Positions 25,012 through 63,664 of a DNA stretch of 64,000 nt are shown here, one piece after another. Location of the stretch: assembly GCF_026125785.1 (NCBI RefSeq), contig NZ_JAHCKL010000010.1, forward strand, positions 1 to 64,000, in the 5' to 3' direction. Numbering within the stretch: position 1 is the first letter of the stretch; every line of letters starts with the position of its first letter. This stretch comes from Hydrogenophaga sp. Lineage in GTDB: Bacteria; Pseudomonadota; Gammaproteobacteria; Burkholderiales; Burkholderiaceae_C. The notes beneath the pieces were generated by a model. It saw only the letters and a program-made list of their open reading frames with translations, did no database searches and was not told where the DNA came from. The position numbers and the translations under genes were made by a program.

Positions 25012-25022
25012 TGGACTGACCA
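25012..25022. promoter_or_regulatory. Operator-like motif TGGACTGACCA (1 of 8)
   Basis: It sits 15 bases before the ATG at 25038 inside the longer dyad AAATGG-ACTGA-CCATTT (25009-25025). One mismatch to TGGTNNGACCA. A TAAAAT box overlaps its left edge, so binding would block transcription. Confidence 0.5.
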
Positions 25023-25037
25023 TTTAAAGGATGAATC

Positions 25038-26021
25038 ATGAAAGCCATCGTCTGCCGCGAATTTGCCCCCGTTGACCAACTGGTCTACATCGACATGCCC
25101 CGCAGGCCGCTGGCCCCAGGTGAGGTTCGCATCGCCATCAAGGCCGCCGGCACCAACTTCCCGGACTCTCTCAAGGTCGAAGGCCTGCACCAGATCAAAC
25201 CCGAACTGCCCTGGGTGCCTGGCAGCGAATCCGCTGGCGTGGTGTCCGAGGTCGCGCCAGACGTCACGCAGTTCAAGGCAGGTGACCGCGTGATGGGCGT
25301 CTCCCGTGCGGACGGAGGTGGCTTCGCGCAGGAGATCGTGCTGCCCCAGGAACGCGTGTTCGCGCTCGCTCCCGCCATGAGCTTCGAGGCCGCCGCAGCC
25401 ACGCCGGTGGTCTACGGCACCACGCTGTACGCCCTCAAGCAGCGCGGCCAGCTCCAGCCCGGCGAAACCGTGCTCGTGCTCGGCGCCGCCGGCGGTGTGG
25501 GCCTGGCCACGGTGCACCTGGCCAAGGCCATGGGTGCGCGCGTGATCGCCGCCGCCAGCACGCCCGAGAAACGCGCGCTCACGCTGCAACATGGCGCGGA
25601 CCATGCCGTTGACTACACGCAACCGGACTGGCGCCTGCAAGTGAAGGAGCTGACCGGCGGCAAAGGAGCCGATGTGGTGTACGACCCGGTGGGTGGCGAT
25701 GCCTTCGACGAAGCGGTCCGCGCCATCGGCTGGGGCGGCCGCTACCTGGTGATCGGCTTCACCTCGGGACGCATCCCCACGCTCAAGATCAACATGCCCC
25801 TGGTCAAGGGCTACGACGTGATCGGTGTGCGCTACGACGTGTGGCGCGACGGCTGGTGGCACGAGGCGCGCCTGAATCTGGAACAGATCCTGCGCTGGTG
25901 CGCCGAGGGCAAATTCCAGCCGCTGGTTTCGGCCAGCTACCCGCTGGCCGACGCCGTCGCCGCGCTGCGCAGCATCACCAGCCGCCAGACCAGCGGCAAG
26001 GTGGTGCTGGTCAACGACTGA
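25038..26021 (+). CDS. NADPH:quinone oxidoreductase / MDR-family zinc-free reductase
   Basis: A 327-residue protein of the quinone-oxidoreductase branch of medium-chain dehydrogenases. The N-terminal catalytic domain has GTNFPDSLKVEG and PWVPGSESAGVV. The Rossmann domain begins VLVLGAAGGVGLATVHLAKA near 148 (family motif AAxGGVG). The Cys and His zinc ligands of alcohol dehydrogenases are missing, so it should reduce an enone, quinone or enoyl-CoA with NADPH. The ribosome site AAAGGA precedes the ATG. An operator-like dyad lies directly upstream, and the next gene converges nine bases away. Confidence 0.9.
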   Translation: MKAIVCREFAPVDQLVYIDMPRRPLAPGEVRIAIKAAGTNFPDSLKVEGLHQIKPELPWVPGSESAGVVSEVAPDVTQFKAGDRVMGVSRADGGGFAQEIVLPQERVFALAPAMSFEAAAATPVVYGTTLYALKQRGQLQPGETVLVLGAAGGVGLATVHLAKAMGARVIAAASTPEKRALTLQHGADHAVDYTQPDWRLQVKELTGGKGADVVYDPVGGDAFDEAVRAIGWGGRYLVIGFTSGRIPTLKINMPLVKGYDVIGVRYDVWRDGWWHEARLNLEQILRWCAEGKFQPLVSASYPLADAVAALRSITSRQTSGKVVLVND

Positions 26022-26030
26022 GAGGCCGGC

Positions 26031-26996: not shown

Positions 26997-27052
26997 GATC
27001 GTGGTCTCCTCTTTCTGGATGGGGTGAAATTCAGGGAACGCGCTGGCCGTGT

Positions 27053-28579: not shown

Positions 28580-28590
28580 GAAAGGCCCCG

Positions 28591-29541
28591 TCAATGCGGA
28601 CGGTCTCCGATGATGGTCGCACGCATCATGCTGCGGACGTTGGGGTAGTAATCCATGATGGCGTAGTGCTGGACCGACCGGTTGTCCCAGAACACGATCG
28701 TGTTCTTGCGCCACTGGATCCGCACCTGAAATTCAGGCGTGCGCGCCTGGCGCAGGAGAAAGGCAAAAAGGTCGCGCGCCTGGGTCGGCGCATCGCGGTT
28801 CCAAACCCCCTCATTGATTTGCCGGTAGTTGGCGAAATGGGTTGTGAAAGCCTCATTGACATAGAGGATCTTCTCGCCGGTCTCGGGATGGGTGCGCACC
28901 ACAGGATGCTCGACTGGGGGAATCTCTTCGCGCAGCTTGGCCCGGCCTTCAGACGTTGGCGTGCGGTTGGAGAAGACCACCGAAGCGTCGTGCATCGCGT
29001 TCAGGCCGATGAGCTTCTCCTTGACCGTATCGGGCAGGGATTCGTACGCGGCCACCATGTTCACAAAGATGGTGTCGCCGCCCACTTCCGGGCATTCGAC
29101 GCAGCGAAGCACCGAACCCATCGATGGCTCCGGATAGAACGACGTATCCGAGTGGTAAACGTTCTCGACGCCGACGTTGACGTCGTTGTGCACGAACGTC
29201 ACCAGTTCAGGATGGTCCGGATGGCGCTTGATGATCGGGTGCACTTCAAGTTTGCCGAAACGCCTGGCAAAGGCCACATGCTGCGCCGGCGTGACGTCCT
29301 GTTCGCGAAACACGAGCACCTTATGCCTTGCCAGCAGTTGGCGCAGCATCGCCACCTCCTGTTCATCGAATTCCGTCGCCAGGGAAATCCCGGAGAGTTC
29401 AAGACCCAGCGTGGGTGAAAGAAGCTTCCCCTGCCATGGGCCGAAGGAACCTCTGGCCATGGCAGGCGCTGGCGCTGTGCGGGGCGGCTTGGCCATCACG
29501 GCCACTGAGGGGTCTTTGGAAACTGCGCTCACGGTACTCAT
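28591..29541 (-). CDS. TauD/TfdA-family 2-oxoglutarate-dependent dioxygenase
   Basis: A 316-residue iron enzyme. The facial triad is H130-x-D132 (NVYHSDTSF) and H292 (SVQHYAIMD), with R307 (MMRATI) for 2-oxoglutarate. Family members hydroxylate substrates so that they fall apart (taurine, 2,4-D, alkyl sulfates); the product is often an aldehyde, matching the downstream aldehyde dehydrogenase. The substrate here is unknown. About 30 residues of unstructured N-terminus precede the domain. The ATG at 29541 has CAGGAGC in front. It is divergent from a TetR regulator across a 132-base AT-rich control region. Confidence 0.92.
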   Translation of the reverse strand: MSTVSAVSKDPSVAVMAKPPRTAPAPAMARGSFGPWQGKLLSPTLGLELSGISLATEFDEQEVAMLRQLLARHKVLVFREQDVTPAQHVAFARRFGKLEVHPIIKRHPDHPELVTFVHNDVNVGVENVYHSDTSFYPEPSMGSVLRCVECPEVGGDTIFVNMVAAYESLPDTVKEKLIGLNAMHDASVVFSNRTPTSEGRAKLREEIPPVEHPVVRTHPETGEKILYVNEAFTTHFANYRQINEGVWNRDAPTQARDLFAFLLRQARTPEFQVRIQWRKNTIVFWDNRSVQHYAIMDYYPNVRSMMRATIIGDRPH

Positions 29542-29569: not shown

Positions 29570-29583
29570 AGAATTGTTATTCT
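29570..29583. promoter_or_regulatory. AT-rich dyad in the TauD-TetR control region
   Basis: AGAAT-TGTT-ATTCT is a perfect inverted repeat, followed by CTGATTTTATTTTCAG (29582-29597), a second short dyad. Both lie between the divergent dioxygenase and TetR genes in a strikingly AT-rich patch, as expected for a TetR operator. Confidence 0.45.
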
Positions 29584-29606
29584 GATTTTATTTTCAGAAA
29601 TATCAA

Positions 29607-29617
29607 TGGTCCTTCCA
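29607..29617. promoter_or_regulatory. Operator-like motif TGGAAGGACCA (2 of 8)
   Basis: Read on the minus strand. One mismatch to TGGTNNGACCA. It lies 65 bases upstream of the dioxygenase start and 57 before the TetR start. Confidence 0.4.
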
Positions 29618-29673: not shown

Positions 29674-30399
29674 ATGAAGACAGGCAAAAACGCTCCAAGA
29701 GCACGCGAAACCGCCAAAACGCGTACGGCGCCGGCGATCGATCACCAACTGCTTGGAAGCCTGCGCGACTGGATAGCGCAAGGACGGCTGCCCGAACTCA
29801 ACCCAACGCAGCAGGACCGCAGCCTGCGCACGGCGCTGGCCATGATCGAGGCGGGCCGGACCCTGCTCAGGGACCGTTCACTCGAAGATCTTTCGGTGGA
29901 AGCGGTGTGCCGCGCCGCGGGTACGACCGTAGGCGCCTTCTACGGAAGGTTCGAGAACAAGCAGGCTTTCTTTCTCACCATGGAACGCGTGCAAACCATG
30001 CAATCCGAAGCCGTACTGGCCGACTTCGCGGCCAGGCACGTGATCGGCAAGACCCGCCTGGACGATCTCTGCCAGGACATGGTGCACCTCACCGTGCAGG
30101 GTTTTCGCTCCAACGTTGGTGTACTGCGCGCTGCCCTGCAGCACACCAAGGAGGGCATGTGGGATCTCTTCAAGGCTTCCGGCGACCGCTACCGCGCCGC
30201 GCTCACCGTGCGAATGAAGCCACTGCTCACCCACCTTCCACCGAAGGAGCGAGAACTGCGGATCCTCTTCGCCTACCAGGCCCTTGCAGGCACGCTGGTG
30301 CACGCCACGCTGAACAACCCCGGACCGCTCCTCCTGGAGGACGAGGCTTTGATCACCGAACTGGCGCGCATGGTCAAGACCTACCTCAAGGCACCTTGA
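29674..30399 (+). CDS. TetR-family transcriptional regulator
   Basis: A 241-residue repressor-type protein. The DNA-binding helix-turn-helix is at about 72-96 (LSVEAVCRAAGTTVGAFYGRFENK), after an unusually long N-terminal arm of about 45 residues. The C-terminal helices would bind the effector. It is divergent from the dioxygenase operon and most likely controls it and itself through the dyads between them. Its 3' end overlaps the convergent aldo/keto reductase gene by 14 bases. Confidence 0.92.
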   Translation: MKTGKNAPRARETAKTRTAPAIDHQLLGSLRDWIAQGRLPELNPTQQDRSLRTALAMIEAGRTLLRDRSLEDLSVEAVCRAAGTTVGAFYGRFENKQAFFLTMERVQTMQSEAVLADFAARHVIGKTRLDDLCQDMVHLTVQGFRSNVGVLRAALQHTKEGMWDLFKASGDRYRAALTVRMKPLLTHLPPKERELRILFAYQALAGTLVHATLNNPGPLLLEDEALITELARMVKTYLKAP

Positions 30400-31389: not shown

Positions 31390-32094
31390 TTAGCTCAGAC
31401 CCGACACCGGCACACTGGCGCCGTGAATATCCCTCGCGGCATCCGAGGCCAGGAAAGCGATGACGCCTGCCAGCGATGCAGGCGATACCCACCGGGAGGG
31501 GTCCGCCTTGGGCATGTCCTTGCGGTTCTCCGGCGTGTCGATGATGCTGGGCAGCACACAGTTGACGTTGATGCCGCGCTCACGCAACTCGGCCGACATC
31601 GACTCCGTCAACCGCGCCACCGCGCTCTTGGATGCCGCATAGGCCCCCATGTTCGCACCGCCCTTGCCCGCCGCACCGGCACCGATGTTCACGATGCGGC
31701 CGCCACCTGCGGCCAGCATCGCGGGCACCACGGCGCGCGCGGTGTGCAGCACCGAGCGCACGTTGAGCCCCATGAGGAAATCCCAGGTGCCGTCCGACGT
31801 TTCGTGCACCGGCTCACCCATGCGGAAGCCGCCTGCCAGGTTGCAGAGCACGTCGATGCGGCCGAAGCGCTGCAAGGCCTGCTGCACCGCACTCTGCACG
31901 GACGCCGCGTCCAGCAGGTTGGCGGCCAGGCTGAGCTGGCGTTCGCCATCCGTGCCGAACACGCTGTTGAGCTGCGCCTGTTCTCGATCCAGCAGGACCA
32001 AGGTCCAACCATTTGAGGAAAACATCTGGGCAACCGCTTTTCCGAGATTGCCGCAAGCACCGGTGATCAGGACAGTTTGCATATCTTTTTTCAT
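31390..32094 (-). CDS. Short-chain dehydrogenase/reductase (SDR)
   Basis: A 234-residue classical-type SDR. The cofactor loop is TGACGNLGKAVA near residue 11, NLAGG replaces the usual NNAG near 85, the active-site Tyr/Lys pair is YAASKSAVARL near 150, and VNCVLPSIIDT follows. It oxidises or reduces a hydroxyl/carbonyl group. The ATG at 32094 lies where transcription should start from the mapped -10, so the message may be leaderless. An in-frame ATG four codons later (32082) is an alternative. The operator motif lies 13 bases upstream. Confidence 0.9.
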   Translation of the reverse strand: MKKDMQTVLITGACGNLGKAVAQMFSSNGWTLVLLDREQAQLNSVFGTDGERQLSLAANLLDAASVQSAVQQALQRFGRIDVLCNLAGGFRMGEPVHETSDGTWDFLMGLNVRSVLHTARAVVPAMLAAGGGRIVNIGAGAAGKGGANMGAYAASKSAVARLTESMSAELRERGINVNCVLPSIIDTPENRKDMPKADPSRWVSPASLAGVIAFLASDAARDIHGASVPVSGLS

Positions 32095-32100: not shown

Positions 32101-32130
32101 AGTATATGGTCTTACCATTCTTTGAGCCAA
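32101..32130 (-). promoter_or_regulatory. Minus-strand promoter with operator in its spacer
   Basis: Reading the minus strand: -35 TTGGCT (32130-32125), 18-base spacer, -10 TATACT (32106-32101). The spacer contains TGGTAAGACCA. Transcription would start at about 32094, on the ATG of the SDR gene. Confidence 0.55.
32107..32117. promoter_or_regulatory. Operator-like motif TGGTAAGACCA (3 of 8, exact)
   Basis: An exact match on the minus strand to TGGTNNGACCA, the pattern bound by FadR/PdhR-type GntR regulators. The 12-mer TGGTAAGACCAT is identical to the copy at 63642 and has the same position relative to -10 and -35. Confidence 0.6.
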
Positions 32131-32207: not shown

Positions 32208-32242
32208 GTTGCAATGTCAACCTATTATGTTGACATTGCAAC
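32208..32242. promoter_or_regulatory. Perfect 14-base inverted repeat in the amidohydrolase promoter
   Basis: GTTGCAATGTCAAC, spacer CTATTAT, GTTGACATTGCAAC. Each arm is itself a dyad (GTTG-N6-CAAC). The right arm contains a perfect TTGACA -35 (32230-32235). It is most likely a double operator for a dimeric repressor or activator; as RNA it would form a 14-base-pair stem only if transcribed from further upstream. Confidence 0.65.
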
Positions 32243-32341: not shown

Positions 32342-34063
32342 ATGAGCAGCACCTTGGACCTGGTGATTCGTGGCGGCGCGGTGGCAGACGGCCTGGGCGG
32401 CCCACTGGTGCAAGCCGACGTGGCGATCGACAAAGGCGTGATCGTGCAAGTGGGCAAGGTGACGGCCCAGGGCCGCGAGGAAATCGACGCACGGCACCAC
32501 ATGGTGGCGCCGGGTTTCGTCGACATCCACACCCACTACGATGGCCAGGCCGTCTGGGACCAGCGCTTCGCGCCATCCAGCTGGCACGGCGTGACCACCG
32601 CCGTCATGGGCAACTGCGGCGTGGGTTTCGCGCCCGTGCGCAAGCAGGATCGCGACCGCCTCATCGACCTGATGGAAGGGGTGGAGGACATCCCTGGCGT
32701 GGCGCTGCAGGAAGGCCTGGACTGGGCCTGGGAGAGTTTCTCCGACTACCTGGATGCGCTGGAGCGCAAGCCGCACGACATCGACTTCGGCGCCCAGCTT
32801 CCCCACGCCGCCTTGCGCGTGTACGTGATGGGCGAGCGCGCCTCGCGGCTCGAAATAGCCACCGCCGAGGACCGTGCCCGCATGCGGACACTGACCACCG
32901 AGGCCATGCGCGCCGGCGCGATCGGCTTCTCCACCTCGCGCTCGATCAACCACAAATCCATCAAGGGCACGCCCACCCCCACGCTCAAGGCGTCGGAAGA
33001 AGAGCTGATGGCCATCGCCATGGGCGTGAAGGACGCCGGGCGCGGCGTGCTGCAGATGATCACCGACTTCGACGGCGAGGACGTGGACGGCGAGTTCCAG
33101 CTCATGCGCCGCCTGACGGAGGCCTCCGGCCGGCCGCTGTCGTTCTCGCTGATGCAGAAACACAAGAACCCGCGCGGCTGGCAGCGCATCCTGGAGCTCA
33201 CGCGCCAGGCCAACCAGGACGGCCTGCGCATGCTGGCCCAGGTGGCACCGCGCGGCGTGGGCATCATGCTGGGCCTGCAGGGCAGCCGCAACGTGTTCTC
33301 CGAGTGCCCCAGCTACCAGGCGATTGCCGAGCTGCCTTTCGCCGAGCGCGTGGCCCGCATGCGGCAGCCCGAGGTGCGTGCCGCCTTGTTGCGGGAGCTG
33401 CCGCACAGCGGCAAGACGCCGCTGGGCATGCGCCTGGTGGAGTTCACCAACATCTTCGCTTTCGGCAATCCGCCCGAGTACGACCCCGGCCCGGAGAAGT
33501 CGGTGGCCGCCATCGCCGCACGCGAGGGCCGCGAACCGGGCGAAGTGGCGTACGACCTGATGATGGCCGACGACGGTCACGGCATGCTGTACTCGCCCTT
33601 TGCCAACTACGCGGACCGCAGCCTGGATGCTTGCGGCGACATGATCGCGCACCCGGACACCGTGATCGGCCTGGGTGATGGCGGAGCGCACGTGGGCCTG
33701 GTCTGTGACTCCAGCTTCCAGACCTTCGTGCTCAGCCACTGGGGCGGCGAGAAGGGCCGCTTCGACCTGCCCTGGCTGATCAAGCGCCAGTCGCACGACA
33801 CCGCTCGCGCGGTTGGCCTGAGCGACCGTGGCGTGATCGCACCCGGCATGAAGGCCGACATCAATGTGCTCAACCCGGATGCGCTGGGCATGGCCGTGCC
33901 GCACATGCAGTTCGACCTGCCTGCCGGAGGCCGCCGCCTCATGCAGCGCGCCCAGGGCTATGCCGCGACCATCGTGTCGGGCACGCCGGTGTACCGCCAT
34001 GGCGAAGCCACCGGCGCCCTGCCTGGCCGCCTGGTGCGCGGCCCCCAGAACGCACCGGCCTGA
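32342..34063 (+). CDS. N-acyl-D-amino-acid deacylase family amidohydrolase (copy 1)
   Basis: A 573-residue metal-dependent amidohydrolase. The zinc motif is H63-x-H65 ([12 protein letters not shown]), followed by [10 protein letters not shown] (the Cys that bridges metal in D-aminoacylases). Two further His lie in SINHKSIKG and [10 protein letters not shown], and the catalytic Asp is in LGDGGAHVG near 445. The family hydrolyses N-acyl-D-amino acids, hydantoins and related cyclic amides; the real substrate is unknown. Copy 2 (35120) is closely similar along its length. The ATG follows AGAAGGA. It opens a plus-strand operon and is followed by a Bug gene after 62 bases. Confidence 0.87.
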
Positions 34064-34071
34064 GTGCGCGC

Positions 34072-34091
34072 GACCCGTTCGCGGACGGGTC
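34072..34091 (+). other. Intercistronic hairpin, amidohydrolase 1 to Bug
   Basis: GACCCGT, loop TCGCGG, ACGGGTC: a perfect 7-base-pair stem in the junction before the Bug gene. It may act as an RNA-stability element. The second module has a hairpin in the same place. Confidence 0.45.
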
Positions 34092-34125
34092 TCTTCGCGA
34101 CCACGACAACGACAGGAGACACACC

Positions 34126-35109
34126 ATGACATCCCTACGCTTCCTGCGCCGCACGGCATGGGCCGCGCTGCTTTCGCTGGCAGCCGCCTGGCATGCCCCC
34201 GCCCTGGCCGAATGGCCGGAAAAACCGGTCCGCATGGTGTGGCCTTTCGCCGCTGGCGGCCTGGGCGCCAACCTGGCGCGCATCCTGGCAGAAGGCCTGC
34301 AACAACAACTGGGTCAGCCGGTGTATGTGGATGCCAAGCCCGGCGGCGGTGGCGTGGTGGCGTTCCAGCTCACCAAGCAGGCGGAGCCGGACGGCTACAC
34401 CATCATGCTCGGCACCAACAGCACATCCACGCTGCTGCCCTCCATCCAGAAGAACCTGCCCTTCGACCCGAGCAAGGACTTCGAGCACGTGGCCATGGTC
34501 TACGTGGGTGGCAATGCGGTGGTGGTGCGCGCGGACAGCCCGATCAAGGACTTCGCCGACCTGCGCGCGCAAGCCAAGGCCAACCCCGGCAAGCTGAACT
34601 TCGGCTCGGCGGGCAACGGCACCACCTACCACCTGATGCCCTCCATGTTCGATCTGCTCAACGGCTCGAAGATGGTTCACGTCCCGTACAAGGGCGGGGC
34701 CCCAGCCTACATGGGCCTGCTGGGCGGCGAGGTGTCGGTGGTCTTCGGCGACCTGTCGTCCCTGCCACACGTGCGCGCGGGCAAGATGCGCGCCCTGGCC
34801 GTGATGAGCCCCAAGCGCCTGGAAGCAGCGCCCGAGATCCCCACCACCGCCGAGCTGGGCATGCCGGATCTGGTGATGGAGTCGTTCTACGGCATCTTCG
34901 CCCCGCTGGGCACGCCCAAGCCCATCCTGGACAAGCTGAACAAGGCCACCATCGCCGTGTTGGGCATGCCGTCCACGCAGGCTCAGCTCAAGACGCTGAT
35001 GATGGAAGCCGCCCCGGACCAGAGCCCCAAGTATTTCGCCGACAAGATCAAGTCCGAAACCGCCCGCTGGCGGCCGGTGATCGAGAAGGCTGGCATCACC
35101 GCAGAATAA
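34126..35109 (+). CDS. Bug-family substrate-binding protein
   Basis: A 327-residue periplasmic protein with a signal peptide ending near residue 28 (WAALLSLAAAWHAPALAEW). Bug signatures are VRMVWPFAAGGLGANLARIL, VDAKPGGGGVVAFQ and VPYKGGAPAYMGLLGGEV. It is very similar to the Bug protein at 36919, including the unusual AAGGLGANLAR ligand loop, so both may bind the same kind of compound. It lies between two amidohydrolase genes, which suggests import of the amidohydrolase substrate (inference). AGGAGA precedes the ATG. Confidence 0.93.
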   Translation: MTSLRFLRRTAWAALLSLAAAWHAPALAEWPEKPVRMVWPFAAGGLGANLARILAEGLQQQLGQPVYVDAKPGGGGVVAFQLTKQAEPDGYTIMLGTNSTSTLLPSIQKNLPFDPSKDFEHVAMVYVGGNAVVVRADSPIKDFADLRAQAKANPGKLNFGSAGNGTTYHLMPSMFDLLNGSKMVHVPYKGGAPAYMGLLGGEVSVVFGDLSSLPHVRAGKMRALAVMSPKRLEAAPEIPTTAELGMPDLVMESFYGIFAPLGTPKPILDKLNKATIAVLGMPSTQAQLKTLMMEAAPDQSPKYFADKIKSETARWRPVIEKAGITAE

Positions 35110-35119
35110 GGATTCCCGC

Positions 35120-36868
35120 ATGACGACCGCAACCGAGTTCGACCTGGTCATACGCAACGGCCAGGTGGTGGACGGCACCGGCGCTCCCGCCTTTGCCGCC
35201 GACGTGGCCATCAAGGACGGCCGCATCGCGGCCGTGGGCCAGGTGGCTGGCAAGGGACGCCAGGAACTGGACGCCCAGGGTCTGCTGGTTACTCCGGGCT
35301 TCGTCGACATCCACACCCACTACGACGGCCAGGCCATCTGGGACCGGCAGCTCACACCCGGTTCGTGGCACGGCGTGACCACGGTGGTCATGGGCAACTG
35401 CGGCGTGGGTTTCGCGCCCGTGCGCCCGACCGACCGCGATGCGCTGATCGAGCTCATGGAAGGCGTTGAAGACATCCCCGGCCCCTGCCTGGTCGAAGGC
35501 CTGCAATGGAACTGGGAGAGCTTCGGGGAATACCTGGACGCGCTGGACGCGCACCAGCGCGACACCGACATCTGCGCCCAACTGCCACACGGTCCCCTGC
35601 GCGTGTACGTGATGGGCGAGCGCGCATTGCGCCTGGAGAACGCCACGGCGGAAGACATCGCGCAGATGCGAGAGATCGCCGCCGAGGCCATGCGCGCCGG
35701 TGCCCTGGGCTTCTCCACCTCGCGCACCATCAGCCACAAGACCGCCAAGGGCGACCCCACCCCCATGCTGCGCGCGCAGGAAGAGGAACTGCTGGGCATC
35801 GCCATGGGCCTGGCCGACGCGGGCCATGGCCAGCTGGAATTCGTGTCCGACTGGGACCAGCCCAGCCCGGCCGGCGAGTTCGCGATGATGCGCCGCCTGG
35901 TGGAAAAGTCCGGGCGCAGTTGCGTGTTCTCGCTCAATCAGCGGCACGGTGACCGCAAGGACGTCTGGCGTGAACTGCTGGCGCTCTCGGACCAGGCGGC
36001 CGCAGACGGGCTTCGCATCCGTCCCGTGACCGCGCCGCGGCCCATCGGTTCGCTGTTCGGCCTCAGCGGCACGCAGAATCCGTTCGCGGCCACGCCCACC
36101 TACCGCAGCATCGCGAACCTGCCTCTGGCCGAACGCGTGGCCCGCATGCGCGACCCCGAGGTGCGCCGCCGCATCCTGAGCGAGGACCCCTACAAGGACA
36201 GCACTTTCCCACTGTTCGAGCGCATGGGCTTCGAGAAGATGTACGAGCACATGTTCCTGCTGGGCGATCCGCCGAACTACGAACCGCCGCGCGAGAGTTC
36301 CATCGCCAACATCGCCCGCCGCGAGGGCCGCAGCGGCTCGGAAGTGGCGTACGACATGCTGCTCGAAGACGGCGGACACAGCTTCCTCTACGCCACGTTC
36401 ACGGGCTTTCACGACTACGTCTGCGAGCCGACGCGCGAGATGCTCAACCACCCCAACGCCATGATCGGTCTGGGCGACGGCGGCGCACACGTGGGCTTCA
36501 TCACCGACGCCTGCTTCCCCACCTACCTGCTTACGCACTGGGGCCGCGACCGCGCCAGCGGCCGCCAGCCGGTGGAAGAGCTGGTGCGCCGTTACACCAG
36601 CGACCCGGCGTTCACCGTCGGCCTTCTGGACCGTGGCGTGATCAAGCCGGGCATGAAGGCCGATGTCAACATCATCGACTTCGACCGCCTCGCGCTGGGC
36701 AAGCCCTACGTGGTGGACGACCTGCCCGCTGGCGGCAAACGCCTGCTGCAGAAGGCCAGCGGCTACAAGGCCACCATCCTCTCGGGCGAAATCACCTACC
36801 TGGATGGCGAGTCCACCGGCGCCACGCCAGGCCGCTTGGTGCGCGGACCGCAGAACACCCCGGCCTGA
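35120..36868 (+). CDS. N-acyl-D-amino-acid deacylase family amidohydrolase (copy 2)
   Basis: A 582-residue paralogue of the gene at 32342. The motifs are conserved: H65-x-H67 ([12 protein letters not shown]), [10 protein letters not shown], His in TISHKTAKG and in LNQRHGDRK, and LGDGGAHVG near 452. Differences concentrate in the middle part (residues 290-360), where the substrate pocket is expected, so the two copies may act on different N-acyl or cyclic amides. It starts 10 bases after the Bug stop and is clearly in the same operon. Confidence 0.87.
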   Translation: MTTATEFDLVIRNGQVVDGTGAPAFAADVAIKDGRIAAVGQVAGKGRQELDAQGLLVTPGFVDIHTHYDGQAIWDRQLTPGSWHGVTTVVMGNCGVGFAPVRPTDRDALIELMEGVEDIPGPCLVEGLQWNWESFGEYLDALDAHQRDTDICAQLPHGPLRVYVMGERALRLENATAEDIAQMREIAAEAMRAGALGFSTSRTISHKTAKGDPTPMLRAQEEELLGIAMGLADAGHGQLEFVSDWDQPSPAGEFAMMRRLVEKSGRSCVFSLNQRHGDRKDVWRELLALSDQAAADGLRIRPVTAPRPIGSLFGLSGTQNPFAATPTYRSIANLPLAERVARMRDPEVRRRILSEDPYKDSTFPLFERMGFEKMYEHMFLLGDPPNYEPPRESSIANIARREGRSGSEVAYDMLLEDGGHSFLYATFTGFHDYVCEPTREMLNHPNAMIGLGDGGAHVGFITDACFPTYLLTHWGRDRASGRQPVEELVRRYTSDPAFTVGLLDRGVIKPGMKADVNIIDFDRLALGKPYVVDDLPAGGKRLLQKASGYKATILSGEITYLDGESTGATPGRLVRGPQNTPA

Positions 36869-36882
36869 CGACGGTCCGTCAG
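36865..36882 (+). other. Intercistronic hairpin, amidohydrolase 2 to Bug
   Basis: CTGACG, loop ACGGTC, CGTCAG, overlapping the amidohydrolase stop codon. It occupies the position of the 34072-34091 hairpin in the first module, though its sequence differs. Confidence 0.4.
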
Positions 36883-36918
36883 CCCTCGCATTCCATCTTT
36901 CAACACACGGAGACAACC

Positions 36919-37905
36919 ATGACGTCCTTCAAGATGATGCGCCGCACCGCGGTGACCGCCCTGGTCGCGCTGGTCGCCAGCTGGCAAGCGCCCGCCCTTG
37001 CCCAGCAATACCCCGACAGGCCCATCAAGTTCGTCTGGCCTTACGCCGCCGGCGGCCTGGGCGCCAACCTGGCGCGCCTGCTCACCGACGGTCTGCAGGA
37101 ACGTCTGGGCCAGCCGGTGGTGATGGACGTGCGTCCCGGTGCCGGCGGTACGCTGGGCACGGCGGCGATCAAGAACGCCGCGCCCGACGGCTACACCATT
37201 GGCCTGAGCACCATCGCGCCGCTGTCCCTGGGCCCCAGCCTGTACAAGAACCTGCCCTACGACTCGACCAAGGACTTCGAGCCGGTGGCCATGACCTTCA
37301 TCGGCCCCAACCTCATCGTGGTGAACTCGTCCAGCCCGATCAAGACTTTTGGTGATCTGGTGGCCTTCGCCAAGGCCAACCCGGGCAAGCTGAGCTACGG
37401 CACAGCGGGCAATGGCAGCACCTTCCACCTCACGGCCGGCCTGTTCTCTCAGCTCACCAATGGCCAGATGATCAACGTGCCCTACCGCGGCGGCGCGCCG
37501 GCCTTCATGGGTCTGCTCGGCGGTGAGGTGCAGGTGGTCTTCGGCAACACCGACTCCCTGCCGCACGTGGCCGCGGGCAAGATGCGCGCGCTCGCCGTCA
37601 TGAGCCCCAAGCGTGTCTCCATCGCGCCCGACGTGCCCACCACCGCCGAACTCGGCATGCCCGAGCTGATGCTCGAGTCCTGGTACGGTGTGATCGCACC
37701 CGCCGGCACGCCCAAGCCCATCATCGACCGGCTCAACCGCGAGATCGCGGCCGTGCTGGAGACGCCGCGCGTGAAGGACGCGCTGAAGACACTCAATACC
37801 GAAGTGGCGCCCGACACCAGCACGGCCACCTTCCGCAAGACCATCGCCAGCGAGATCGCTCGCTGGAAGCCGGTGATCCAGGCCGCCGGCATCACGGCGG
37901 AATAA
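36919..37905 (+). CDS. Bug-family substrate-binding protein
   Basis: A 328-residue periplasmic protein with a signal peptide ending near residue 29 (VALVASWQAPALAQQ). IKFVWPYAAGGLGANLARLL and VPYRGGAPAFMGLLGGEV match the Bug protein at 34126 nearly residue for residue, and both end IxxAGITAE. It is the second half of a duplicated amidohydrolase-Bug module. No TctAB permease is nearby, so it may work with a permease encoded elsewhere or as a sensor. ACGGAGA precedes the ATG. Confidence 0.93.
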   Translation: MTSFKMMRRTAVTALVALVASWQAPALAQQYPDRPIKFVWPYAAGGLGANLARLLTDGLQERLGQPVVMDVRPGAGGTLGTAAIKNAAPDGYTIGLSTIAPLSLGPSLYKNLPYDSTKDFEPVAMTFIGPNLIVVNSSSPIKTFGDLVAFAKANPGKLSYGTAGNGSTFHLTAGLFSQLTNGQMINVPYRGGAPAFMGLLGGEVQVVFGNTDSLPHVAAGKMRALAVMSPKRVSIAPDVPTTAELGMPELMLESWYGVIAPAGTPKPIIDRLNREIAAVLETPRVKDALKTLNTEVAPDTSTATFRKTIASEIARWKPVIQAAGITAE

Positions 37906-37922
37906 GCCGCCGTCCGCGCCGA

Positions 37923-37942
37923 GGCCCGGGCCTCCCCGGGCC
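37923..37942 (+). terminator. Hairpin between Bug and BKACE genes
   Basis: GGCCCGGG, loop CCTC, CCCGGGCC, then GTTTCTCT. It is a strong GC stem with a weak T tract, probably a partial terminator that lowers expression of the BKACE part. Confidence 0.5.
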
Positions 37943-37971
37943 GTTTCTCTCGCTTCACCGGAGGGCTGTCC

Positions 37972-38841
37972 ATGCGCGTGGTGATGATCGAGTCGGCGAT
38001 CAATGGCAACCAGATGCGCGACCGCAACCCGCATGTGCCATGGTCGACCAGCGAGATCGTGGCGGATGCGATCGCCGTCTGCCGCGCAGGCGCTTCGCTG
38101 GTCCATTTTCATGTGCGCGACCCGCACGACGGAGCCTGGGTGCACGACGTGCCGAGCTACGCCGCGGCCATCCGGGGCATACGCGCCGGCTGCGACGCCC
38201 TGCTGTGGCCCACGCTGGCCAATGGCACAGATCCCGTGCTGCGCTACCAGCACATGTTCGGCCTCGCGGCAGACCCGGCCACGCGGCCCGACCTGGGCCT
38301 GTGCGACCCCGGTTCAGTCAACCTGGCGGGCTACGACCCGATCACGCGGCAACTGCGCGGCGAACGCACCTACCTGAACAGCGCGGAGAACAGCCGCTAC
38401 TTTCTGCAGGCATGTAAAGAGCTGGGCCTGCGCCCCAGCGTGCAGGTGTTCGACGCCAGCTTCCTGCGGGCCGCGCTGGTGTTCCTGGAGCAGGGCCTGC
38501 TGGCCGAACCCCTGATGCTCAAGTTCTACCTGGGCGGACCCGCCGTTCCCGTGGGGCTGCCTCCCACACGCGCCAGCCTGCTGGCCTGCCTCCAGATGCT
38601 GGCCGGGGTGCGCTGCCACTGGTTTGCCGGCGCGCTGGGCGCGGACATCGCACCGCTCATACCGGACATCGTGGAGCTCGGTGGCCACGTGCGCGTGGGC
38701 TTCGAAGACTGTCTGCATGCCGACGGCCCCTCGCCGCCACTGACCAATCCGCAGATCGTCGAGCGCGCGGCGGATGCCATCCGAGCGCTCGGACACCAGG
38801 TCGCCACGCCGGCGGACGCTCGTCGCCTGATCGAACCCTGA
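37972..38841 (+). CDS. BKACE family beta-keto acid cleavage enzyme (copy 1)
   Basis: A 289-residue TIM-barrel protein of the DUF849/Kce family. Zinc ligands H45 and H47 lie in SLVHFHVRD, and NGNQMRDRNPHVPWS is the family's N-terminal block. Known members cleave a beta-keto acid using acetyl-CoA, giving acetoacetate and a CoA thioester, as in lysine fermentation. Here the beta-keto acid is unknown; the flanking SDR could make it from a 3-hydroxy acid. The ATG at 37972 follows GGAGGG. Confidence 0.87.
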   Translation: MRVVMIESAINGNQMRDRNPHVPWSTSEIVADAIAVCRAGASLVHFHVRDPHDGAWVHDVPSYAAAIRGIRAGCDALLWPTLANGTDPVLRYQHMFGLAADPATRPDLGLCDPGSVNLAGYDPITRQLRGERTYLNSAENSRYFLQACKELGLRPSVQVFDASFLRAALVFLEQGLLAEPLMLKFYLGGPAVPVGLPPTRASLLACLQMLAGVRCHWFAGALGADIAPLIPDIVELGGHVRVGFEDCLHADGPSPPLTNPQIVERAADAIRALGHQVATPADARRLIEP

Positions 38842-38851
38842 GGACCGCTGC

Positions 38852-39769
38852 ATGCCCGAACGCAAAAAACTCATCATCGAGGTGCGCGCGAATGAGTACG
38901 CCATGCGAGCGCGCAACCCGCATGTGCCCTGGAGCGCCGAGGAGATCGGCCAGGATGCGGCGGAGTGCCGCGCCGCAGGCGCGTCCATCGTGCACTTCCA
39001 TGCGCGCGGACCCGCCGGCGAACCGGCCTTCGGGCTGGAGAGCTACCGGGCACCCATCAGGGCCATCCGCGCGCGCTGCGACATGCTGGTCTACCCCACG
39101 CTGGGCGCCTTCGAACGGCCACTGTCGGCGCAGGAACGTGTCGCCCACATCGTCGAACTCGCCCGCCAGGGAGAAGCACCCGACATCGCCCCCATGGACA
39201 TGGGGTCGACCAACGCGGACCGTTTCGACGCCGCCAGCGGCTGGTTCACCACCGAAGACCGCACCTACATCAACAGCCATGCCACGCTGCGTCATTTCGC
39301 CCATGCCTTGGGCGAGGCCGGCGTCAAGCCGCAACTGGTGTGCTGGAACCTGCCCATGCTGCGCAGCGCCACCGCTTTCCTGCGCGCCGGCCTGATCGCG
39401 CAGCCCGCCTGGATCTACCTGGGACTGAGCGCGGCCTCGCTCGCGCACCACCCGCCGACCTTGCGCGGATTGATGGCGCTGGTGGATTTCCTGCCAGACG
39501 ATGTCCGTTGCGAGTGGACGGTCGCGCTGACCGGCGCCAACCTGCTGCCACTCGCCGCCACGGCCGTGGCGCTGGGTGGGCATGTCTCCATCGGCGTTGG
39601 CGACCACGACTACGCCGAACTGGGCTCGCCACGCAACGCCGAGCTGGTGCGCCGCGTGGTCGAGATGGCGCGCAACTGCGGCCGTGAACCCGCCACGCCC
39701 GACGAGGCCCGCGCCATGCTGGGCATGCCGGCTCGAAACACCGTCCATTCGACGAAAGACCTGGCATGA
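38852..39769 (+). CDS. BKACE family beta-keto acid cleavage enzyme (copy 2)
   Basis: A 305-residue paralogue of the previous gene, starting 10 bases after it. H48 and H50 lie in SIVHFHARG; the Asp that follows the zinc motif in copy 1 (HVRD) is replaced by Gly, so substrate binding probably differs. ARNPHVPWS and VALGGHVSIGVGDHDY are family blocks. Two unequal copies side by side suggest a two-subunit enzyme or two related substrates. Its end overlaps the SDR start by four bases. Confidence 0.85.
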   Translation: MPERKKLIIEVRANEYAMRARNPHVPWSAEEIGQDAAECRAAGASIVHFHARGPAGEPAFGLESYRAPIRAIRARCDMLVYPTLGAFERPLSAQERVAHIVELARQGEAPDIAPMDMGSTNADRFDAASGWFTTEDRTYINSHATLRHFAHALGEAGVKPQLVCWNLPMLRSATAFLRAGLIAQPAWIYLGLSAASLAHHPPTLRGLMALVDFLPDDVRCEWTVALTGANLLPLAATAVALGGHVSIGVGDHDYAELGSPRNAELVRRVVEMARNCGREPATPDEARAMLGMPARNTVHSTKDLA

Positions 39770-40626
39770 CCCCCTCGAACCGACTCGACGCCCGCGTGGC
39801 GGTCATCACCGGCGCAGCGGGCGGACTGGGTGCCGGCATCGCGCGCCATCTGGCGCGCCTCGGCGCACACCTGGCGTTGCTGGAGCCTCGCGGCGAGAGT
39901 CTCGACAACCTGATCGAGGAGCTCCGCGGCTGCGGCGCCACGGTCCAGGCCGTGGCCTGTGACGTTACGGACGAGTCCGCTGTGGCCCGCGCTGCGCAAA
40001 CCGTACTGGCCCAACAGGGACGCTGCGACATCCTGGTCAACAACGCCGGCATCCTGGTGCCTGCGAGTCCGCTGGAGAAGCTATCGCTGAGCGACTGGAA
40101 CCGCAGCATGGCGGTCAACCTCACGGGCGTGCTGCTCTGTACCCAGTCCTTTGGACGCGCCATGCTGCGCCAGGCCAGCGGCAGCATCATCAACATCGGC
40201 TCCATCGGTGCGCAGAGCCCCAATACCTCGCCCCCCTACAGCGTGACCAAGGCCGGCGTGCTGGCGTTGACGCGCCACACCGCCGTGGAATGGGGACCCA
40301 TGGGTGTGCGCACCAACTCGGTCAGCCCCGGTTTTCTGCGCACACCCCTGTCAGAGGTGCACTACGCGAACCCCGACATGCTGCAGTTGCGCACGCAGGT
40401 CATTCCTGTGCGGCGCCTGGGAACGGCGGACGACATTGCGGCGGTGGTGGCTTTCTTGGCCAGCGACGCGGCAGCCTTCGTCAACGGGCAGGACATCGTG
40501 GCCGACGGCGGCTTCCTGCACACCACGCTGATGCATGTGCACAAGCACGCCGACCAGTATGGCGGCACCCATCAGGCGGACCTGAGTCCTTTCGCGCGGC
40601 TCCAGGCCAAGACATCCTCTGGCTGA
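39766..40626 (+). CDS. Short-chain dehydrogenase/reductase
   Basis: A 286-residue classical SDR. The cofactor loop is TGAAGGLGAGIA near residue 16, NNAG near 92, and the catalytic Tyr/Lys pair YSVTKAGVLAL near 160. VSPGFLRTPLSE and VNGQDIVADGGF are typical C-terminal blocks. A tail of about 25 residues (HKHADQYGG onward) is extra. It is coupled to BKACE copy 2 by an ATGA overlap and closely resembles the SDR at 44388 (same GPMGVRTNSVSPG type segment). A likely role is oxidation of a 3-hydroxy acid to the keto acid used by BKACE (inference). Confidence 0.93.
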   Translation: MTPSNRLDARVAVITGAAGGLGAGIARHLARLGAHLALLEPRGESLDNLIEELRGCGATVQAVACDVTDESAVARAAQTVLAQQGRCDILVNNAGILVPASPLEKLSLSDWNRSMAVNLTGVLLCTQSFGRAMLRQASGSIINIGSIGAQSPNTSPPYSVTKAGVLALTRHTAVEWGPMGVRTNSVSPGFLRTPLSEVHYANPDMLQLRTQVIPVRRLGTADDIAAVVAFLASDAAAFVNGQDIVADGGFLHTTLMHVHKHADQYGGTHQADLSPFARLQAKTSSG

Positions 40627-40641: not shown

Positions 40642-40652
40642 TGGACCGACCT
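40642..40652. promoter_or_regulatory. Operator-like motif TGGACCGACCT (4 of 8)
   Basis: Two mismatches to TGGTNNGACCA, but with the following GTT it differs by one base from the E. coli FadR-type site TGGTCCGACCTGTT. It lies 75 bases before the second TRAP operon, in an AT-rich stretch with a TATAGT box at 40676-40681. Confidence 0.45.
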
Positions 40653-45211: not shown

Positions 45212-45222
45212 AAGACTGACCA
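45212..45222. promoter_or_regulatory. Operator-like motif half-site AAGACTGACCA (5 of 8)
   Basis: Only the GACCA side matches TGGTNNGACCA well. It shares the 11-mer GACTGACCATT with the motif at 25012. It lies 36 bases upstream of the SDR gene. Confidence 0.3.
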
Positions 45223-50825: not shown

Positions 50826-50836
50826 GAATAAGACCA
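50826..50836. promoter_or_regulatory. Operator-like motif half-site GAATAAGACCA (6 of 8)
   Basis: The AAGACCATT part equals the right side of the exact copies at 32107 and 63642. The left half is missing. It touches the LysR-type dyad next to it. Confidence 0.3.
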
Positions 50837-50850
50837 TTCAAGTCTTGAAT
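50836..50850. promoter_or_regulatory. LysR-type palindrome at the LysR start
   Basis: ATTCAAG-T-CTTGAAT is a perfect 7-1-7 dyad containing a T-N11-A LysR box (50837 to 50849). It overlaps the upstream start codon of the LysR gene, suggesting autoregulation and control of the divergent operon. Confidence 0.6.
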
Positions 50851-51826
50851 GATTGGTCCAAAAATGGGCGGAGAGCGCATAGAAATCGGCCTGCTGTACT
50901 GCCTGGAGGCGCTGCTGTCCGAGCGCTCCGTGACGCGCGCGGCGAACCGCCTGGGCATGAGCCAGCCCGGCATGAGCAACGCCCTGAACCGGCTGCGCCA
51001 CCTCACGCGCGACCCGCTGCTGGTGCGCACCGGCAAGGGCATGGAGCTCACGCCGCGCGCGGTGGAACTGGCGGTGCTCGTGAAATCGGGCCTGTCGGTG
51101 TTCGATGACATCTTTTCCGACCCACGCCCTTTCGAACCCGCACGCGCGGAAGGCGTCATCACCGTCGCCATGTCCGACTCGATGGCCCTGGAGCTCGGCC
51201 CTCGGCTGACTGCGCGGCTGGACCGCGAGGCGCCGGCGCTGTGCCTGCACATCCAGCGCCTGGACCAGGCCAACCTTTTCAGCCTGCTGGCCGAGGGCAA
51301 GCTGGACCTGGGGATCGGCTACGCCACTTCGGTACCCGAACAGATGTACGCGAGCGACCTGCTGAGCCAGTCGCTCTCGGCCATACGCGCCAATGACCAT
51401 CCGCGCATACGCGACCGCCGGCTCTCGCTGGACACCTTCATGCGCGAGCGGCATGTGCTGACCGCCGCACCCCGGCACTCCATTTCCTGGGCCGAGTCCT
51501 CGGTGGCGGACGCGCTGAAGGCGCGCAACCTCGTGCGTACCGTTGGGGCACGGGTCAATTCCATCCTGCTCGCGCCGCCCATCGTGGCCAGTTCGGGCAT
51601 GCTCTGCACCATGCCCACCTGGCTGGCACGGCGCAGCCAGGCGGTCCTGCCGATCACGCTGCATGCCCTGCCTTTCGAGACAGCGGCCTTCAAGACCACC
51701 ATGGTCTGGCACGAGCGCACCCATCGCCAGGCACTGCATCAGTGGGTGCGCGGCGTGGTGCGTGAGCTGGTGAAGACCTTGTGCGAGGGCTGCCAGCATA
51801 CCGATGGGCTTCCGCATCTGGCCTGA
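50849..51826 (+). CDS. LysR-family transcriptional regulator
   Basis: A 325-residue regulator. The winged helix-turn-helix is at about 18-70 (LEALLSERSVTRAANRLGMSQPGMSNALNRLR, shown in part: SVTRAANRLGMSQPGMSNAL), and the effector-binding domain starts near 95 (GVITVAMSDSMALELGP). It resembles the NodD/nahR-type group. It is divergent from the acyl-CoA dehydrogenase operon and probably activates it in response to a pathway intermediate. The start is uncertain: the ATG at 50849 lies inside the operator dyad, and the ATG at 50864 would free it. Neither has a good ribosome site. Confidence 0.92.
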   Translation: MIGPKMGGERIEIGLLYCLEALLSERSVTRAANRLGMSQPGMSNALNRLRHLTRDPLLVRTGKGMELTPRAVELAVLVKSGLSVFDDIFSDPRPFEPARAEGVITVAMSDSMALELGPRLTARLDREAPALCLHIQRLDQANLFSLLAEGKLDLGIGYATSVPEQMYASDLLSQSLSAIRANDHPRIRDRRLSLDTFMRERHVLTAAPRHSISWAESSVADALKARNLVRTVGARVNSILLAPPIVASSGMLCTMPTWLARRSQAVLPITLHALPFETAAFKTTMVWHERTHRQALHQWVRGVVRELVKTLCEGCQHTDGLPHLA

Positions 51827-56927: not shown

Positions 56928-56932
56928 GCAAA

Positions 56933-60676: not shown

Positions 60677-60761
60677 ATTGAACCTTTTCTGGCTGTCGGG
60701 GCGGGTCGCGCGGCGAACGCCGAGACGGCGTGTCGGATGCGGACGGGTCAGACCCCATGTT

Positions 60762-60772
60762 TGGTTGGACCT
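60762..60772. promoter_or_regulatory. Operator-like motif TGGTTGGACCT (7 of 8)
   Basis: One mismatch to TGGTNNGACCA. It lies between the divergent KstD-like and Gfo/Idh genes (86 and 66 bases from their starts). A TAGGAT box follows directly on the plus strand, the same order as at 32107 and 63642. Confidence 0.45.
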
Positions 60773-60837
60773 TAGGATACCATCGCCCCCATACCCATCC
60801 TTTCCACCCCCCTACTTCTCGATCCACCTGCTCCGCC

Positions 60838-61881: not shown

Positions 61882-61894
61882 GGCCTGTTCACCC
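61881..61894. repeat. 14-base repeat GGGCCTGTTCACCC (copy 2)
   Basis: Identical to 56933-56946, starting directly at the end of the Gfo/Idh gene in front of a hairpin. Confidence 0.6.
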
Positions 61895-61899
61895 TATTC

Positions 61900-61962
61900 C
61901 CTGATGGTTGGGTTGTTGGGGTCTGCAAACCAGAACCACACCAACCACCCCCAAACATCAGG
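61900..61962. terminator. Stem-loop between convergent Gfo/Idh and monooxygenase genes
   Basis: CCTGATGGTTGGG (61900-61912) pairs with CCCAAACATCAGG (61950-61962) at 12 of 13 positions around a 37-base loop. The right arm includes the monooxygenase stop. There is no T run. Confidence 0.4.
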
Positions 61963-63586
61963 CCAACTCGAACCCCCGGTACCCCTGCGCGGCCACCTCG
62001 GTGACGATCTTCCGGTACGCCGGAACCCCGGCCACATACGGCATGAACACCCGCGGCTTGCCGGGCATGTTGGAGCCCATGTACCAGGAGTTGGCCGTCG
62101 GGTAGAGCGTGCGGTCAGCCACCTCATTGACGTGCCTCACCCACTCGTCCTCGGCCGACTGCAAGGCTTCGATGCGCTGCACGCCCTGGGTGCGGGCGTC
62201 CTGCAGGCACTGCGTGAGCCAGTCCACATGCAGTTCGATGGAGTGCACCATGTTGCTCAGCACCGAAGGGCTGCCGGGGCCGGCCAGGATGAACATGTTG
62301 GGAAAGCCCGCCACCGCGAGGCCCAGGTAGGTGCGTGGACCGTGTTCCCACTTGTCGCGCAGCGACACGCCGCCCACGCCACGCACGTCGATCGACTTGA
62401 GGGCCCCGGTCATGGCGTCGAAGCCGGTGGCGAACACGATCATGTCCAGCGGATAGTCCTTGCCCGAGCGGGTGCGCAACCCCGTGGGCGTGGCCTCCAC
62501 CAGCGGGTCGGCCTTGACGTCGACCAGGGACACGTTCGGGCGGTTGAAGGTCTGGTAGTAGTCCGAGTCGACGCACAGGCGCTTGGTGCCGAAGGGAAGG
62601 TCGTCCTTGGGGCACAGCAGCTCGGCCGTGGCGGGGTCCTTGACCGTTTCGCGGATCTTGCCGCGCACGAAGTCCGCGGCCTTCTCGTTGGACTGCTTGT
62701 TGACCATGAGGTCGTTGAAGGCACGCAGCATGCGGAAACCACCGCCCGCGCCCCGCCAGCGGAACTCGAACTCCTTGCGGCGCTCCTCGTCGTTCACCTC
62801 CATGGCCGACTTGTCGTTGGCGATCAGGAAGTGGCCGGTGTGCGTTTCCAGCGCGCGGGCTCGGCGCGCACCGTAGTGGGCCTTGACCTCTTTCAGTTGC
62901 TCTGCGGTGATGGGCTCGTTCTGCGCAGGCACGCTGTAGTTGGCGGTGCGCTGGAACACCGTGAGGTGCGCCGCGCGCGCCGCGATCTCCGGCGTCATCT
63001 GCACGCCGCTCGACCCCGTGCCGATGAGACCCACGCGTTTGCCGGCGAAGTTCACCCCGTCCAGCGGCCAGTTGGCGCTGTGGTGCCATTCACCCTGGAA
63101 ACGCTCCAGGCCCGGAAACTGCGGCGCCTGCGGGATCGACAGGCAGCCGGTGGCCATGATGCAGTAGGGAGCGACGAACCGCTCACCCGCCCCGGTGGTC
63201 ACGGTCCACAGACCGGACACCTCGTCGTAGACGGCGGAGGTCACGCGGGCGTTGAGCTGGATGTCGCGCCGCAGGTCGAAGCGGTCGACCACGTGGTTGA
63301 TGTAGCGCAGGATCTCCGGCTGCGGCGCGTAGCGCTCGGTCCAGTCCCATTCCTGCTGCAGTTCCTCGCTGAAGGAATAGGAGTAGTCCAGGCTCTCCAC
63401 GTCGCAGCGCGCACCGGGGTAGCGGTTCCAGTACCAGGTGCCGCCCACGCCGTCGCCGGCCTCCAGCACGCGGGCCGACAGGCCGATGCGGCGCAGGCTG
63501 TAGAGCTGGTAGATGCCGGCGAAACCGGCCCCCACCACGATGGCGTCCAGCCGGACGGGAGAGGATGGGGTGCTGTTCTCGCTCAC
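61958..63586 (-). CDS. Type I Baeyer-Villiger monooxygenase
   Basis: A 542-residue flavoprotein. The Baeyer-Villiger fingerprint FxGxxxHxxxWP is present as FQGEWHHSANWP (163-174), between the FAD loop VVGAGFAGIYQL (18-29) and the NADPH loop IGTGSSGVQM (188-197). GTWYWNRYPGARCDVES near 49-65 is the cyclohexanone-type signature with its catalytic Arg. It inserts oxygen next to a ketone, turning cyclic ketones into lactones or esters with NADPH and O2. It starts with GTG at 63586 behind AGGAGA; no ATG is available. It is divergent from an SDR. Confidence 0.95.
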   Translation of the reverse strand: MSENSTPSSPVRLDAIVVGAGFAGIYQLYSLRRIGLSARVLEAGDGVGGTWYWNRYPGARCDVESLDYSYSFSEELQQEWDWTERYAPQPEILRYINHVVDRFDLRRDIQLNARVTSAVYDEVSGLWTVTTGAGERFVAPYCIMATGCLSIPQAPQFPGLERFQGEWHHSANWPLDGVNFAGKRVGLIGTGSSGVQMTPEIAARAAHLTVFQRTANYSVPAQNEPITAEQLKEVKAHYGARRARALETHTGHFLIANDKSAMEVNDEERRKEFEFRWRGAGGGFRMLRAFNDLMVNKQSNEKAADFVRGKIRETVKDPATAELLCPKDDLPFGTKRLCVDSDYYQTFNRPNVSLVDVKADPLVEATPTGLRTRSGKDYPLDMIVFATGFDAMTGALKSIDVRGVGGVSLRDKWEHGPRTYLGLAVAGFPNMFILAGPGSPSVLSNMVHSIELHVDWLTQCLQDARTQGVQRIEALQSAEDEWVRHVNEVADRTLYPTANSWYMGSNMPGKPRVFMPYVAGVPAYRKIVTEVAAQGYRGFELA

Positions 63587-63634
63587 GGATGTCTCCTGGG
63601 TCGCGCGCCTGTCGGCGCGGCTAAAGGTCGTAGA

Positions 63635-63664
63635 ATTCTACTGGTAAGACCATTTCAACATCAA
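63635..63664 (-). promoter_or_regulatory. Monooxygenase promoter with operator in its spacer
   Basis: On the minus strand: -35 TTGATG (63664-63659), 18-base spacer, -10 TAGAAT (63640-63635). TGGTCTTACCA lies in the spacer, one base from the -10, as at 32107. A plus-strand TAGAAT (63631-63636) overlaps it. Confidence 0.5.
63642..63652. promoter_or_regulatory. Operator-like motif TGGTAAGACCA (8 of 8, exact)
   Basis: An exact match to TGGTNNGACCA and identical over 12 bases to the copy at 32107. It lies 56 bases before the monooxygenase start and 29 before the SDR start. Confidence 0.6.

Follow-up and report, generated by a model that had tools for sequence, protein, structure and literature searches.

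Predicted operators of FadR-subfamily GntR paralogues at several catabolic gene clusters of a Hydrogenophaga genome

Introduction

GntR regulators of the FadR subfamily (FadR, PdhR, LldR, GlcC, NanR) combine a GntR winged helix-turn-helix (wHTH) domain with an FCD domain. Their operators are described by an A/T-rich palindromic consensus, in which 3 nt separate a TKGT box from an ACMA box (PMC4494728). The PdhR box is given as AATTGGTnnnACCAATT, and FadR is released by acyl-coenzyme A (acyl-CoA) (PMC7660256). NanR is reported to bind GGTATA repeats (PMC8012715). Here we analyze a 64,000-nucleotide stretch of a Hydrogenophaga sp. genome, in the following called the window, which comprises positions 1-64000 of contig C2 (123,229 bases) of a 4.17-Mb assembly. 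Eight sites of the type TGGTNNGACCA had been noticed in it, at 25012, 29607, 32107, 40642, 45212, 50826, 60762 and 63642, and the original prediction was that they are a shared operator through which one FadR/PdhR-type GntR regulator may coordinate a whole gene island.

The assignment to this family was right. The pattern fits the TKGT-N3-ACMA consensus as described (PMC4494728): the two boxes are 3 nt apart and the flanks are A/T-rich. The sites are located in promoters rather than in genes. The system shares with the FadR subfamily the GntR wHTH and FCD domains of the regulators, a TGGT-N3-ACCA palindrome with A/T flanks, and sites at the promoters of catabolic operons. Unlike the described members, the regulators of this genome form a separate clade with several paralogues in one genome, their second FCD histidine is missing, and the targets are clusters with Baeyer-Villiger-type monooxygenases, P450, CoA-transferases and TctC binding proteins. 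The E.coli PdhR regulon is similar in having almost the same box and several operons with one operator type, but PdhR serves pyruvate metabolism and related functions, whereas accessory catabolic clusters and multiple paralogues are found here. NanR provides the closest solved structure by profile comparison (6on4, E=1.8e-24) and is by sequence a FadR-subfamily relative; it differs in that GGTATA repeats, not this palindrome, are described as its binding sites.

From these data we conclude, with a probability of about 0.8, that five of the eight sites are operators for GntR repressors which form a clade of the FadR subfamily and would block promoters until an inducer binds to the FCD domain. 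The control system is real but of an ordinary type, and it extends over several gene clusters instead of being confined to one island. The operator set is of a known kind; its extent, with several clusters and six paralogues, is invisible from the window alone.

Results

Re-reading of the eight sites gave the same positions and sequences as the original prediction. Compared with TGGTNNGACCA, 32107 and 63642 are exact, there is one mismatch in 25012, 29607 and 60762 and two in 40642, and 45212 and 50826 are half-sites. GACC is present in all eight and GACCATT in five, and with the gene starts used here a start codon lies at most about 90 bp from each site. Loose matching alone is meaningless, because 149 matches with up to two mismatches were found in the window and 165.7 (standard deviation 14.4) in shuffled sequence, i. 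e. there is no enrichment. Between positions 25,000 and 64,000, for which gene starts were adjusted by hand, TGGT-N3-ACCA with at most one mismatch occurs five times in 1,753 intergenic bases (2.85/kb) and seven times in 37,248 coding bases (0.19/kb; P=1.1e-4). Thus the density inside genes does not equal that between genes, a comparison which the original prediction had proposed as a check, and the sites are concentrated intergenically. The five intergenic sites must be 25012, 29607, 32107, 60762 and 63642; 60762 was later rejected, and 40642 with its two mismatches is excluded from this count.

Genome-wide, TGGTNNGACCA is found at 26 distinct places. Eleven of them are intergenic according to the gene caller, and for ten of these a predicted start is no more than 250 bp away; the place C27:199 (locus L044), at a contig end and 3' of a gene, was scored as intergenic but not as promoter-proximal. 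The intergenic places have A/T-rich flanks, and their two variable central bases are mostly A/T; at the 15 places within genes the central bases are mostly G/C. The reversed pattern served as control, with 28 distinct places classified (from the first 30 of 92 matches in contig order, a non-random choice). Four of these were intergenic, three of them where the caller predicted few or no neighboring genes, and none was located within 250 bp of a start, one being at 259 bp. The promoter-proximal contrast of 10/26 to 0/28 is significant (Fisher P=2.2e-4; 1.9e-3 when the 259-bp place is counted), and the plain intergenic contrast of 11/26 to 4/28 gives P=0.033. The exact 11-mer TGGTAAGACCA has four copies in the genome, all intergenic and near starts (C1:212579, C2:32107, C2:63642 and C23:305569), and the copy on C1 precedes a TctC-like gene. 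For TGGTDNHACCA, which covers exact sites without central G/C, there are 23 places; four of the 20 examined were intergenic, with C24:12851, C34:68911 and C44:188720 left out of the count.

A 23-bp symmetric weight matrix was trained on nine promoter sites of C1, C23, C34 and C43, none of them from C2, although the C2 sites had suggested the motif class before the training elsewhere. In a scan of the whole of C2 the highest scores were those of 25012 (22.4 bits), 63642 (22.1) and 32107 (17.1), followed by 29607 (13.5), a new site at 75165 (12.9) and 40642 (12.8), which occupy ranks 1 to 6 in this order. At 12 bits or more there are six intergenic and no coding matches, with 0.14 expected in shuffled intergenic sequence. 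Lower cut-offs take in genes: 8 bits gives eight intergenic and three coding matches, 6 bits 15 and eight. Hence the shared operator is supported for five of the eight sites (25012, 29607, 32107, 40642 and 63642). The other three score at background and were rejected: the claimed half-site 45212..45222 (5.4 bits, rank 29), the one-mismatch site 60762..60772 (4.9 bits, rank 31) and the half-site 50826..50836 beside the LysR gene 50849-51826(+) (4.5 bits, rank 38). What carries the signal is the promoter-located palindrome AWTGGT-N3-ACCAWT. Altogether 24 predicted operators were collected from C1, C2, C5, C23, C34 and C43, with the consensus tNNAWTGGT(C/A)N..ACCAWT and conservation of G -3 at 100%, G -4 at 98%, T -5 at 88% and A -7 at 92%; this conservation of the core is partly due to selection, since the sites were picked by their resemblance.

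The genome has 20 FCD-domain matches. None is in the window, and none of the 30 window proteins scanned with Pfam is a GntR protein, so the statement that the window has no GntR gene holds for this type (other GntR subfamilies were not searched separately). A regulator that had been missed lies 12.3 kb past the window end, at C2:76285-76992, with a GntR wHTH (PF00392, 70 bits) and an FCD domain (PF07729, 53.8 bits). It belongs to a single clade of six GntR paralogues of the PdhR/NanR/LldR type, located on C2, C5 (91.6 kb), C23 (313.7 kb) and C43 (three genes); a seventh FCD domain belonging to this clade is found in a flavin reductase protein. In C2 GntR the residues R54, R58 and E59 (alignment numbering), which are conserved in the recognition helix, have been retained, and a comparison of the recognition-helix residues across the paralogues by eye gave no clear rule that would match paralogue to site. 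The C2 and C23 proteins, two of the six paralogues, were scanned as candidate PdhR, LldR or GlcC equivalogs and rejected: the NCBIfam cut-offs are 330, 311 and 301 bits, and the scores were 67.8, 64.3 and 63.7 for C2 GntR and 104.8, 89.8 and 63.1 for C23 GntR. The conserved histidines of FCD domains are putative metal ligands. In an alignment the second of them is absent from all seven clade proteins, reductase fusion included, and the third from six of the seven; among the other 13 FCD proteins of the genome, 12 have the second and all 13 the third. As read from this alignment, the clade does not have the ligand set of a metal-binding FCD sensor.

The C2 GntR gene is part of a minus-strand run that encodes AurF-like, short-chain dehydrogenase/reductase (SDR), aldehyde dehydrogenase (ALDH) and GMC oxidoreductase proteins (by Pfam) and, by reading, ATP-binding cassette (ABC) transporter-like genes. 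The SDR-transporter part of this run is headed by the new site 75165, with weaker copies at 75181 and 75220. Predicted operators occur near clade regulators on all four regulator-bearing contigs, C2, C5, C23 and C43, and the operator also marks clusters on C1, C5, C23, C34 and C43. On C5 the site is at 94144. Five sites surround the C23 regulator (305447, 305569, 319447, 324534 and 329224), and the C23 run ferredoxin reductase-ferredoxin-P450-ALDH-CoA-transferase (P450 by Pfam, the rest by reading) has two operators. C43 has seven sites over 32 kb, of which C43:160024 and C43:140135 lie between a regulator gene and its divergent neighbor.

Association of the motif with the regulator clade was also found in other genomes. 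The 18 GntR loci from genomes of the same family contained eight matches of at least 10 bits (seven distinct places in six loci), all intergenic, whereas 43 control loci gave five matches, two of them intergenic, one of which is site 32107 itself (locus L087). Among the 20 FCD loci of this genome, matches were present at four of the seven clade loci and one of the 13 others. From named genomes (Xenophilus, Variovorax, Pigmentiphaga, Bradyrhizobium and others) 27 loci were scanned, which are the first of 79; the other 52 have lower identity and are mostly from outside the Proteobacteria. At a cut-off of 13 bits the 27 yielded 40 intergenic and two coding matches, distributed over 22 loci. One hundred column-permuted matrices gave a mean of 0.55 and a maximum of 4 intergenic matches on these loci. 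Most of the closest named relatives of the clade regulators are Burkholderiales. Eight longer stretches of same-family genomes, some of which overlap the 18 GntR loci, had 11 intergenic and no coding matches in six stretches, with a permuted mean of 0.05. No match was found in 27 control loci of this genome (81 kb; L087, which holds 32107, was left out), and one weak match was found in 51 kb of three catabolic clusters on Variovorax plasmids, which have similar enzymes and no GntR gene seen by eye. No C2 GntR orthologue above 46% identity was present among the 13 of 150 family genomes with a match, and no description of the clade was found in the titles and abstract beginnings of open-licence papers.

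In the window, the predicted operator ttaaaaTGGACTGACCAtttaaa (25012..25022) precedes the quinone-reductase-like gene 25038-26021(+) (ADH_zinc_N, Pfam) by 16 bp. The exact match TGGTCTTACCA (32107..32117) is upstream of the SDR gene 31390-32082(-) and, at a distance of 225 bp, also of the amidohydrolase/TctC gene run 32342-40626(+). The second exact match, TGGTAAGACCA (63642..63652), is flanked by the flavin monooxygenase gene 61958-63586(-) and by an SDR-like gene that begins at 63682(+). The monooxygenase was called Baeyer-Villiger-type by a sub-cut-off NCBIfam match to PtlE and the SDR by reading; a paralogue of the monooxygenase on C23 (74% identical) also has an upstream site. Probable operators are TGGTCCTTCCA (29607..29617), between the TauD-family dioxygenase gene 28591-29541(-) and the TetR gene 29674-30399(+) (both by Pfam), and TGGACCGACCT (40642..40652), 76 bp before the DctP gene 40728-41744(+) of a TRAP transporter (Pfam). 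According to the gene map the five supported sites serve up to eight of about 15 transcription units between 25 and 64 kb.

Promoter-like sites were sought by consensus matching at five regions (C23:305569, 63642, 25012, 32107 and 40642). The minus-strand promoter-like site for the SDR gene, TTGGCT/TATACT, has an 18-nt spacer in which 32107 is located; 63642 lies inside the 18-nt spacer of TTGATG/TAGAAT, also on the minus strand, for the monooxygenase gene. At 40642 the operator borders on the first hexamer (40654) of such a site, and at C23:305569 it includes the final base of the -10 in TTGACG-17-TACAAT.

Other palindromes were seen in the same intergenic regions. Beside 29607, between the TauD-family and TetR genes, there is AGAAT-TGTT-ATTCT (29570-29590), which may be TetR's own site. 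The promoter region of 32107 has a long inverted repeat, TTGCAATGTCAAC-ctattat-GTTGACATTGCAA (32208-32241), i. e. a different operator-like palindrome, and an unrelated palindrome, CATTCAAG-CTTGAATG (50836-50853), is located at the start of the LysR gene 50849, in the same place as 50826.

Discussion

The mechanism we propose is that a GntR-FCD dimer binds AWTGGT-N3-ACCAWT where the operator overlaps the -35/-10 or start region, mostly at promoters of catabolic and transport genes, and thereby blocks RNA polymerase; a substrate-derived inducer would then bind to the FCD domain and cause the repressor to leave. The placement of the operators at promoter-like sites, as judged from consensus matches, favors repression by steric block. 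Since the putative metal ligands are lost and CoA-transferases and acyl-CoA enzymes are present in the target clusters, a CoA thioester is a plausible inducer. Most likely the C2 paralogue (76285-76992) controls the five window sites and C2:75165, and cross-binding by the other paralogues is likely.

Several results weigh against this interpretation. The scan revealed no sigma-70-like promoter at 25012, the highest-scoring site, and the promoter of the C2 GntR gene itself lacks a strong site, the nearest being 75165 with 12.9 bits. A site like 63642 was present in just two of 28 regions upstream of homologues of the monooxygenase gene 61958 (30 loci, minus two in which no gene was called), both in this genome. 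The 40 intergenic matches in named genomes are not all independent, because the 27 loci include several that are closely related or lie on a common contig, and five of these loci as well as two of the eight clade stretches gave no match. Of 150 family genomes, 39 carry a strict form of the motif. Among the 13 genomes that match the C2 regulator at E<=1e-20, three have it (this genome, G097 and G122), and among the remaining 137 it is found in 36; hence it is no whole-genome marker of the clade. This genome has the most strict copies, six (the next has four), all on C23, C34 and C43, and the window sites are looser than the strict form, none being strict.

The identity of the acting paralogue could be different. 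Possibly, though this is not the assignment we prefer, the C23 or C43 regulators mainly read the window sites and C2 GntR serves only its own operon at 66-77 kb. The operators of all clusters have one consensus, the exact 11-mer TGGTAAGACCA is common to C1, C2 and C23, the site nearest to C2 GntR is weak, and the C2 protein is the closest of the six for just four of 72 proteins of other genomes. Against this, C2 GntR is encoded on the same contig as the window sites, in a similar type of gene cluster, and has retained R54, R58 and E59 in its recognition helix. That the sites instead belong to central-metabolism regulators of the PdhR, LldR or GlcC type using the same box appears improbable: the PdhR box as described, AATTGGTnnnACCAATT, is nearly identical, and the strict motif is present in 36 of 137 family genomes in which no clade member was detected, but the target genes look catabolic, the motif is dense around clade genes, and the two clade members scanned remained below the cut-offs for these three families.

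Even less probable is that each promoter is controlled by a local TetR, LysR or MarR protein and that the resemblance of the motifs reflects chance together with the A/T-rich bias of promoters. The island does contain genes for TetR (29674), LysR (50849) and MarR (about 55465), which suggests local control of the other units. Other palindromes lie beside 29607, 32107 and 50826, and chance fits the three rejected sites. Yet a matrix built from other contigs placed the five supported sites on ranks 1-4 and 6 with 0.14 matches expected at 12 bits, and column-permuted matrices, which have the same base make-up, give almost nothing. Operators of the FadR-subfamily clade thus remain the preferred interpretation. 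The proposal of one regulator for the whole island did not stand, as up to eight of about 15 units have a supported site, there are six paralogues, and the operator is found in several clusters.

The kind of control itself is textbook. What has been gained is that a motif noticed by eye has become a testable regulon, for which there are now candidate regulators, a weight matrix and 24 operators predicted in a single genome. Orphan clusters with Baeyer-Villiger-type and P450 oxygenases, CoA-transferases and TctC binding proteins are linked by it and may respond to related substrates, and this link helps to find what they degrade. A more tentative idea, which we consider rather doubtful, is that of one operator with many sensors: the six paralogues would recognize different intermediates and compete for one operator that at least five catabolic clusters have in common, and the sensor domain would also have been transplanted onto a flavin reductase (C43:130684-131667) with the operator at its own promoter. 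If this were true, the substrate of one cluster would partly open the others, so that a family of compounds would be degraded in a coordinated way.

Among the clusters seen, regulators and operators are densest in the catabolic-looking region C43:128000-166000 (loci L076 and L077), which has three GntR genes of the clade and seven predicted operators. The flavin reductase protein is encoded here (L076:2685-3668, minus strand). It has an N-terminal flavin reductase and a C-terminal clade FCD domain (PF01613 and PF07729) with no GntR domain matched; its FCD part is 41% identical to a C43 GntR, and a predicted operator, C43:131741, is located upstream of the gene. A search of open-licence literature found no paper on such a fusion. 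Homologues with 46-47% identity at a coverage of at least 80% are present on three Variovorax plasmids. Its domain composition suggests that a sensor has been put to new use for gating an enzyme. Apart from the subjects treated here, the window contains a tRNA-Leu(caa) gene at 17106-17190(+).

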